A DNA stretch of 64,000 nt, from NCBI GenBank assembly GCA_017460065.1, contig JAFUBT010000006.1, forward strand, positions 1-64,000. Reading direction: 5' to 3'. Shown here piece after piece: positions 14,407-37,103 of this stretch. The position numbers and the translations under genes are program-made. The notes under the pieces were generated by a model. The model was not told the origin of the DNA. It ran no database searches and saw nothing but the letters and a program-made list of their open reading frames with translations. The first letter of the stretch is position 1; each line of letters starts with the position of its first letter. Source of the stretch: Candidatus Saccharimonadota bacterium. GTDB taxonomy: Bacteria > Patescibacteriota > Saccharimonadia > Saccharimonadales > Saccharimonadaceae.

Positions 14407-15195
14407 CTATAACAAAACCCAGCGCGTTGCGCCACAAGGCCGCACTAGCCCGCGCAACTCCAGTAGAGTCATCTGCTGGTTAAATTCTGCAACGGACAGG
14501 CCAGCACAATACCCTAGTATCTCGTCCGAAGACTGGAGGCCCGCCGTCATAGCGGCAATGATGTCTTGAGCGGACCGAGCCATTCCTGCAAGTTTCTTGG
14601 TGCGGCTATCTTGACGGCCGTCTGTACCGCCAGTAAGATCTTGAACAAAATTATCAATGCTAATCAGCGGCTGCGCGCCGTCGAGAATAAGCCGGTTACA
14701 TCCTTCCGAAAGCGGCCGCGTGATATCGCCTGGGATAGCATAGACGTCTTTGCCCTGGTCAAGCGCCGCAGCAGCGGTTGATTGCGTGCCAGAACGCGCC
14801 GCGGCTTCTACTACAACTAAAACGTCAGCTAGCCCAGAAATGATCCGATTACGCTGCGCAAAGCACCAGTTATAAGTTTCTACCGAGGGGGGCCATTCAG
14901 ACAATATCGCGCCACGCTCCAAGATGCGCTCTGCGAGACGATAATGAGCCTTGGGGTAGATATTGTCAATGGCGGTTCCCAGTACAGCAACGGTAATGCC
15001 GCCAGCGTCCAGACAACCCCGGTGCGCGCAGGAATCAATACCATAGGCAAGACCACTCACGACAATCACACCATACTGTGCCAACTCAAAAGCTAGCCGA
15101 TAGGCGATATTCTCACCATGTGAAGTGCAGCGGCGAGCGCCGACAATTGCGACAACTTTTGTTCCTACACGACGCTGCGGTAGCTGTCCCTGCAT
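14407..15195 (-). CDS. dprA: DNA processing protein DprA
   Basis: 262 residues. The Rossmann-like DprA domain is clear from 'VAIVGARRCTSHGENIA', 'VVSGLAYGIDSCAH' and 'AQRNRIISGLADVLVVVEA'. A winged-helix-like C-terminus (about 210-262) follows. The N-terminal SAM-like domain of longer DprA proteins (about 360 residues) is absent. DprA binds incoming single-stranded DNA and loads RecA during natural transformation. Stops 60 bp upstream of ldh's neighbour region; no SD is obvious, so the start is moderately certain. Confidence 0.92.
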   Translation of the reverse strand: MQGQLPQRRVGTKVVAIVGARRCTSHGENIAYRLAFELAQYGVIVVSGLAYGIDSCAHRGCLDAGGITVAVLGTAIDNIYPKAHYRLAERILERGAILSEWPPSVETYNWCFAQRNRIISGLADVLVVVEAAARSGTQSTAAAALDQGKDVYAIPGDITRPLSEGCNRLILDGAQPLISIDNFVQDLTGGTDGRQDSRTKKLAGMARSAQDIIAAMTAGLQSSDEILGYCAGLSVAEFNQQMTLLELRGLVRPCGATRWVLL

Positions 15196-15332
15196 TCATA
15201 GATTATGAACGGCTGGCGTAATGCCTTCATTGCTGAGCGGCATAAGAAAACTGTGATTAAGCTGACATTTTTGACACTGCATAGCCCAATCATAGCCTAT
15301 CTAGCAATAACTAAAAGCATAAGTATGAAGTT

Positions 15333-34703: not shown

Positions 34704-36938
34704 CTAACAGTGGTAGCGTTGGATATAACTGCAGCCATAGCGATAGTTGGTGCAATAGCTAATATTGCCTTTGCGCCGGAGCTCGCCAATTTGACAACGT
34801 GGGCAAAGTTTTTGATATAACTCTGCTAAATCATCAGATATTTCATAAAGAAAAAGCGATGGGTGGCAACGCTCGGCAATAAGAAAACTCGCCTTGCGAG
34901 CCCGCGTGATAGCTACGTAGAATAAGCGTCGCTCTTCGGCAAACATAAAGTCATCTGGCGTCGACAGCAGAAAATCACTCAACGGATCGTTCTCGCGCGT
35001 TGCTGGCATACCCGTGGGCGTGGCGTTCATGTTTAGTACGACGACGTAATCACGAGTGATGCCCTTGGATTTATGGATTGAGCAGAATGGGATTTTTTGA
35101 CCGCGCCACGAAATAGAGTCTACTCCCAAAACCCTAAGACCGGAGCGCTCCTTGATGCGACGAATATCGTGATTGTAACGCGAGATAATCTGGACATCAT
35201 GCAAGTCGGTGATTTTGGCGAGTATTTGCAATAGTGCGTCAGTGTCGTCGCCCTTACGCTCACTCAGAACAATCTGGATAGGAGTGCACCTGTGACGACT
35301 ACCACGAATATCCTTGGATACTTGCGTAGGGTTCTTCATGATAAAGCGTGAGCTTAACTTGATGGTTGGCTGGCCAAAACGATGCGTTTGCTCGATGAGG
35401 CTGCGCCTAGTATGCAGGCCAAAAGCGTTTTCGAAGTCATGGATTAGCGCCAAATTACTACCAGTGAAACGATAAATCGACTGCCAATCATCGCCCACGG
35501 CGAAGAAACGACAGGAGGGGTTCTTATGCAAAATCGCCCGAATTAGCTGGCTGCGATTGGGTGATAAATCCTGTGCCTCGTCCAGCAGAACGTAGCGATA
35601 ATTTGCCGCACATTCGGGAATTTCCTGCACAGCGCGGCTGGCGTCGTTGATCATATCGGCAAAATCATAGCTACGTGTGTGCTCAAGTTGACGCTGATAA
35701 GCGTTGAAGACAGGCTGGAATAGGCGCAAGAAGGCCCGACTACGACAACGGGCATAACGATCGCCCTGCGCGCGAATAGCGGCGCGGAACTGGCAAAAAT
35801 CATATAGGCTATTCTTGAATTGCGTGATATACGAGCAAAGATAGCGCAGAAATGCATCCAAGTCGGCGCGATATTCGGGGTTTTTCACAATCGCCTGTAG
35901 CGCTTGCTGCTCCGTCCTACGGCGGGGGCGTAAGCCGTGCGCTTTGAGAAATTTGGCAAGCTTACGATACGCCTCCCCCTGTACTCAATCGTTGCTCGTC
36001 AGAAGTAAATATGGCGTGCGATGCTTGCGGTGCAAGCGGCGACGCCAGCGAAAGTCTGTCAGATACTGGCGGCCATAGTAGCTGTGACGCATAGGGCCAA
36101 GCACAATAATGTCGACGTAGACCGTACGGCGTTTATGCCCAATCGTAAAGCTAGGGCGATAGCTCTGATTATAGGTATAAGGCTGGGCGTGAACGTAATT
36201 GAGTTGATGAAGATAGAGCCAATTTGCCAGTAGTTGCGCTTCTTTGTGGCGAATCGGGGCACCAGCCAACGTATGATGGCGAGACGCACTTGACGCTTGG
36301 TTGACGGCGCCGCGTAGGTACATCTGATTAAACAAAATACGCAAACGATGGCCACTATGCTCGCCAGGATTGCGCGGCGTGGCATAGAAAAATAGCAGAT
36401 AATCACAAAACCGGCGAGCATATTGCAGATCTTGGCAGCACAAACGTCAGACATAGCTACGCACAAAAGCTAAGGCTTCGGCCTCGGAGAGCAACCGCCG
36501 CGACGCTAGGCCGTCATGCTCTACAAACTGCAATAGACTGTTGCCGAGACCATGAAAAGTCCGGATTTCAACGTCAGGATGAGCGCAGCGCTCGTGCAAT
36601 TCGGTGACGGTCTTCTTAGTAAACGAAATAACTAGTATTTGCGGCGGCGCAATATGTAGTCGCTCAACAAGATAATTAATCTTCGCCATCAGGCTCATGG
36701 TTTTACCACTACCGGCTGACGCAAGAACTAACTGCGCGTCCTCGCAGGCAATTACCGCTTCGTGCTGCTGGCGATCAAGCCGACAGTCGCCAAGTGACAT
36801 AGGATGCCGCAGCTGACGCCAAATGAATATTCTATTGTGTAGCCGGCGTAGACGTTCCGTCCACGCACTTTTTATCTTTAGCTGTGATGCGGCGATATAA
36901 ACTGGTGAGGCAATAATCTGGATAATTTGTTTTCACAT
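34704..36938 (-). pseudogene. Helicase IV (UvrD/HelD-like) gene with in-frame TGA codons
   Basis: One continuous reading frame encodes a superfamily 1 helicase: Walker A 'LVLASAGSGKTMS', a nuclease-like insert ('LLANWLYLHQLNYVHAQPY', 'YRPSFTI'), 'VLLDEAQDLS', 'AVGDDWQSIYRFTGS', 'IHKSKG' and 'EERRLFYVAITRA', and a C-terminal Cys zinc ribbon. It is interrupted by TGA at 36447-36449 and 35985-35987; there is no frameshift and no TAA or TAG. The frame stays open upstream of the ATG at 36800 to 36930, with a plausible family N-terminus, and an ATG at 36936-36938 is followed at once by a third TGA. Either a young pseudogene or a gene read through UGA. The family unwinds DNA in repair. Confidence 0.75.
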
Positions 36939-37027: not shown

Positions 37028-37103
37028 TGGTGCGGGTTAAGAGACTCTAACTCTCGACCTCTTCCTTGGCAAGGAAGCGCTCTAACAACTGAGCTAAACC
37101 CGC
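37028..37103 (-). tRNA. tRNA-Gly (GCC)
   Basis: Cloverleaf with a 7-bp acceptor stem (GCGGGTT/AACCCGC), anticodon loop TTGCCAA giving anticodon GCC, and an encoded CCA end (37028-37030). 76 nt. It decodes GGC and GGU. Confidence 0.95.

Follow-up and report, generated by a model that had tools for sequence, protein, structure and literature searches.

In-frame UGA codons at tryptophan positions in the natural-transformation genes of a Saccharibacteria genus with an altered release factor 2

Recoded phages carry stop codons inside their late genes (code switching), and these are thought to delay or limit expression (PMC10746230). In cellular genomes, UGA is reassigned to tryptophan under NCBI code 4, for which a 4-bp anticodon stem in tRNA-Trp is one route to UGA reading (PMC13092985), and UGA is read as glycine in other Patescibacteria (PMC13059738). 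Natural competence of Saccharibacteria proceeds via ComEC, DprA, and ComF (PMC10633639). In pneumococcus, competence responds to ribosomal decoding errors, and a route via signalling and proteolysis has been proposed for this response, as cited in PMC3742669. The locus analyzed here lies in a window of 64,000 nucleotides from a Saccharibacteria genome (652 kb in 9 contigs, about 89% complete; the home genome, G000). No prior report of in-frame UGA codons of this kind in Saccharibacteria was found in a search of open-access literature.

The first-pass annotation of the window had described a helicase reading frame that was broken only by TGA and contained no TAA, TAG, or frameshift. Both statements held (Table 1): the interruptions were TGA at codons 2, 164, and 318. 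The TGA at codon 2 is less secure than the other two because the true start codon is unproven. The translation matched the Pfam UvrD-helicase family (E = 2.9e-40), and its best NCBIfam match was DNA helicase IV (PRK11054, E = 4.5e-87), at 293 bits versus an equivalog cut-off of 543 bits. A search of 60 related genomes yielded 20 further full-length orthologues, all of them in one genus of gut and rumen Saccharibacteria, several relatives having come from gut, rumen, or feces. One to four in-frame TGA codons were present in 17 of these 20 orthologues, and none of the 20 had an internal TAA, TAG, or frameshift; the two TAA/TAG codons that were flagged are the normal stops at the C-terminal ends. 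An aromatic residue had been guessed at the middle TGA, and the column was indeed made up of W, TGA, and F. Five columns of the helicase alignment together held 77 TGG and 23 TGA codons and hardly anything else, and the motif GDDWQSIYRF contained TGA in two species.

Table 1. Positions of the helicase, dprA, and other features discussed in the text. Plain coordinates refer to the window; those with a locus prefix lie elsewhere in the home genome.
Feature	Position	Strand	Remarks
dprA, one in-frame TGA	14407..15282	minus	TAG stop at 14407-14409; Pfam DNA_processg_A, 7e-63
DprA codon 29 TGA	15196..15198	minus	W/Y column across species: 11 TGA, 14 TGG, 5 Tyr
UvrD/helicase IV-like gene, in-frame TGA probably read as Trp	34704..36938	minus	744 codons (36938 to 34707), then TAG at 34704-34706
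Helicase codon 318 TGA	35985..35987	minus	Column across 21 species: 10 TGA, 10 TGG, 1 Phe
Helicase codon 164 TGA	36447..36449	minus	TGG in the four nearest orthologues
Helicase codon 2 TGA	36933..36935	minus	Directly 3' of ATG 36936-36938; start codon unproven; many orthologues also with an early TGA
tRNA-Gly(GCC)	37028..37103	minus	Lies immediately upstream of the helicase; ordinary tRNA with no apparent part in UGA decoding
RF2 gene prfB	L037:8214-9254	minus	Near-invariant Arg beside GGQ changed; no in-frame frameshift stop
Sortase-like and small signal-peptidase-like genes, overlapping	L046:11644-12697	minus	Each with an early in-frame TGA
Cutinase/PKD secreted protein, three in-frame TGA	L052:354-2201	minus	Two TGA in the signal peptide; one conserved in G030

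The sequence downstream of the interruptions was under strong purifying selection. For the helicase, dN/dS after the first TGA was 0.07 to 0.10 in close species pairs, which is no different from a TGA-free pair (0.11). For DprA and ComM, the values after the first TGA were mostly 0.04 to 0.09; a higher value of 0.37 after the TGA was found for ComM in the G006/G016 pair. Judged from its conservation in more than 20 species and a dN/dS of about 0.08 past the first TGA, the helicase is not a young pseudogene and is probably a working gene.

A cross-genome tblastn comparison with two relatives covered about 617 kb of home-genome sequence. The same TGA codons at Trp positions were detected in ComEC, DprA, ComM, and a secreted protein with an LTD domain; in several congeners, as in other families of the order, only a few kilobases separate the gene for this protein from comEC. 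Pfam matches support the assignments of ComEC (Competence), DprA (DNA_processg_A), and ComM (Mg_chelatase). From these four genes, TGA was predicted for ComF as well, the last of the core transformation genes. This was confirmed: ComF contained TGA in 27 of 30 genomes of the genus, against 0 of 17 genomes of other families; ComF was assigned by NCBIfam matches under the curated cut-off, and the counts rest on genomes other than the home genome, from which ComF was not recovered. Three species have TGA in place of the W in the ComF motif DDVWTTGSS. ComM has a single well-conserved Trp position, which is occupied by TGG in 11 species and by TGA in 13. Several ComEC sequences begin with Met-Lys-TGA or similar. 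The set had no truly internal TAA or TAG apart from those close to the 3' end in two ComEC genes.

In comparison with other families of the order, TGA in ComEC, DprA, ComM, and the LTD protein was limited to the genus, and no ComEC with TGA was seen outside the genus among the matches listed when 295 genomes were searched across the class. There is little doubt that transformation genes are where the trait is concentrated. The helicase itself is inferred to belong to transformation, given that it shares the TGA trait and occurs only in the genus. TGA codons were also found in cutinase-like, sortase-like, and signal-peptidase-like proteins (the last assigned by sequence resemblance, with no Pfam match), so that the set is wider than competence. 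What the first-pass annotation missed is that the trait is common to a functional gene set and coincides with a changed RF2. Most transformation genes of the genus are broken by standard gene calling, and the capacity for DNA uptake is therefore likely to be under-annotated.

Outside this set, UGA was an ordinary stop. Among mechanically called ORFs of at least 200 amino acids in the home genome, 58 ended in TGA, 229 in TAA, and 147 in TAG. UGA is thus the least used stop, and the 58 ORFs uphold the earlier exclusion of a general recoding. The TsaE-like gene (named by sequence) directly 3' of comEC ends in UGA, and this stop is kept in both species compared. Between the home genome and G030, about 1,270 TGG/TGG columns were found outside the set in best-scoring frames, and none of these conserved Trp columns held a genuine internal TGA. 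All 12 TGA/TGG discordances outside the set were alignment edges past gene ends or were antisense to other ORFs. In this comparison, only the best-scoring frame was kept and leftover discordant sites were inspected singly to curb antisense and shadow frames; TGA/TGA columns, which for the most part fell in tRNA genes, in antisense frames, or at true stops, were left uncounted, and G030:C10:20001-80000 (L264-L266), where the sequence is N, lay outside it. The release factor genes of the genus had no in-frame TGA. A codon-usage scan aimed at coding regions bridged by TGA returned nothing but noise and failed to pick up the helicase itself. A sequence resembling an extended -10 promoter element, TGGTATAAT, was conserved just upstream of the start codons of several genes (for instance, L124 near 6820 and 9876; L040 near 2940).

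When scores were summed across 45 TGA columns from five gene families, Trp alone among the amino acids came out positive. The genes failed as selenoproteins, the homologous positions being Trp or aromatic and not Cys. Purifying selection continued past the stop, and Trp stood at the stop, as read from alignment columns rather than from peptides. Sister species have TGA or TGG at the same sites, which strongly supports the earlier proposal of read-through with UGA as an amino acid, Trp. On this pattern, the UGAs of the transformation gene set are very probably decoded as Trp.

TGA codons lay disproportionately within the first 50 codons (57 of 137 TGA versus 48 of 360 TGG; odds ratio, 4.6); this ratio ignores relatedness and depends on the chosen starts, so that uncertain gene starts affect the count. 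TGA sites turned over from one species to the next, and TGA-free genes were about as numerous as independent turnover predicts. As the TGA count per gene fits independent site turnover, selection for at least one TGA is not evident. The +4 base after in-frame TGA was C in 60 cases, A in 44, T in 25, and G in 8, which differs from that after true stops (T, 50; A, 50; G, 33; C, 29). It resembled the +4 base after TGG, but with G rarer and A commoner. A special read-through context is not claimed, since the +4 bases after TGA are much like those after TGG. Back-up stops were slightly nearer after TGA stops (median, 10 codons) than after TAA or TAG (14 codons).

One tRNA-Trp(CCA) was detected in the home genome by ARAGORN on about 95% of the assembly and by an Infernal scan of the whole assembly. 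The suppressor tRNA with a UCA anticodon suggested for a search was absent from the typed tRNAs of this genome, which is 89% complete and has one or two untyped tRNA matches. The D-arm and the 5-bp anticodon stem of tRNA-Trp were the same as in other families; a genus-specific, suppressor-like change was looked for and not found, and the tRNA looked the same inside and outside the genus. With a 5-bp stem, the 4-bp-stem route to UGA reading is inapplicable. Genome G026 has two tRNA-Trp(CCA) genes (G026:C21:1811-1886 and G026:C16:1951-2026), one of which is identical to that of the home genome; binning contamination may account for this.

Nearly every genome of the genus had an intact prfB, the gene for RF2. 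In 33 of 35 genomes, RF2 carried Arg245His (E. coli numbering), seven residues before Gln252 of GGQ, usually together with Glu258Asn and an extra His after SPFNAD; this His occurs once outside the genus (f15), without TGA. RF1 of the home genome retains the Arg. The residue at position 246, next to 245, is reported to make RF2 of E. coli K-12 catalytically slower (PMC6742477). Two genomes, G002 and G013, had an unchanged RF2 and no TGA in ComEC, DprA, ComM, or ComF, and in the ComM tree they form the sister branch to the rest of the genus. G008 and G010 had the changed RF2, yet no TGA was seen in their recovered genes. A subclade of G034, G035, G011, and G014 (L288, L289, L292) had the changed RF2 and few in-frame TGA codons, mainly in ComF, possibly as an intermediate state or a partial reversal. 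The RF2 change and the use of TGA have a common origin; their correlation thus amounts in effect to a single event and is suggestive rather than proof. We lean slightly toward the RF2 change having enabled the decoding of UGA as Trp.

The explanation that we consider probable is that the natural-transformation genes are expressed via decoding of UGA as Trp, permitted by the altered RF2. According to the sequence pattern, UGA in ComEC, ComF, DprA, ComM, the LTD protein, and the helicase would be decoded as Trp, most likely by the ordinary tRNA-Trp(CCA) acting as a near-cognate. The altered RF2, as the probable enabling change, would make termination at UGA slower. The output of full-length competence proteins would follow the degree of UGA read-through and so stay low or conditional; it may rise when the fidelity of termination or decoding drops. 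On this view, DNA uptake would be restricted, or controlled, by the leakiness of termination. A further step, tentative and somewhat short of an even chance, is a UGA-gated competence regulon, in which the altered RF2 and the in-frame UGAs form a translational gate that switches scattered transformation genes on together once UGA termination or the fidelity of decoding declines, with UGA as a stop elsewhere. The functional restriction of the set and the TGA enrichment early in genes argue for regulation, and both speak against a reading without it that is plausible but likewise falls a little below even: tolerated ambiguity, an early stage of UGA-to-Trp reassignment. Here, a weakened RF2 would make UGA leaky everywhere, and TGG-to-TGA changes would be purged where much product is needed and tolerated in genes needed rarely and in low quantity, with competence the clearest case. 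TGA counts per gene that match independent turnover, the non-competence secreted proteins in the set, and the low use of UGA stops are in line with such tolerance, but other low-abundance repair genes (UvrD/PcrA and RecB/AddA-like matches) were almost all free of TGA.

A dedicated decoder that acts in the competent state is unlikely, be it a tRNA-Trp altered by modification or editing or a suppressor tRNA that escaped detection. Some such switch would be economical for scattered genes that share the trait while UGA is a stop elsewhere, but the single tRNA-Trp(CCA) with its normal anticodon stem and the lack of UCA among the typed tRNAs of the home genome argue against it. Of the three options raised by the first-pass annotation, read-through stood, and the young pseudogene and the transfer from a recoded lineage did not. 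The helicase frame in the window is interrupted by stops, as expected of a gene in decay or an assembly error, but more than 30 independent genomes are alike, with TGA as the only lesion, located in Trp columns, and low dN/dS downstream; this refutes decay and error, which we regard as extremely improbable. About equally remote is a reading in which UGA specifies another residue, either selenocysteine or glycine as in Gracilibacteria, or in which the gene came from a lineage with UGA as Trp. The glycine code of other Patescibacteria lends it a precedent, but the columns are Trp and not Cys or Gly, RF2 is present, and UGA stops are in use. The genes are vertically common to the genus, and scattered native competence genes share the trait, which leaves a transfer unsupported.

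If decoding of UGA as Trp in the transformation genes is correct, a cellular genome would hold one codon with two meanings sorted by gene function. It would also represent a rare reassignment caught part-way, with a change in the catalytic loop of RF2 as the candidate cause. Control of gene transfer would be tied to translation accuracy, which makes a link between decoding error and competence testable by sequence.

Among known systems, recoded phages (PMC10746230) resemble the genus in that recoded in-frame stops are limited to a functional gene class and the codon is a stop in the host. The genus differs in that the genes lie on a cellular chromosome and serve natural transformation, and neither a suppressor tRNA nor an extra release factor or synthetase was detected. 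NCBI code 4 (PMC13092985) likewise places UGA at Trp positions, but in the genus UGA is still mostly a stop, RF2 is kept, no tRNA(UCA) was found, the anticodon stem has 5 bp and not 4, and few genes are involved. Gracilibacteria and Absconditabacteria are also Patescibacteria with a changed meaning of UGA; there the change is genome-wide and to Gly, whereas here it is specific to a gene set, points to Trp, and occurs in another lineage. In programmed UGA read-through and prfB autoregulation, output is set by RF2 versus decoding at UGA, as proposed here. Unlike prfB autoregulation, the trait involves many genes with several UGAs per gene and sites that turn over, and prfB itself has no in-frame UGA. 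In pneumococcus, translational accuracy is tied to competence (cited in PMC3742669); in this genus, if the proposal is true, the tie would be written into the coding sequences.
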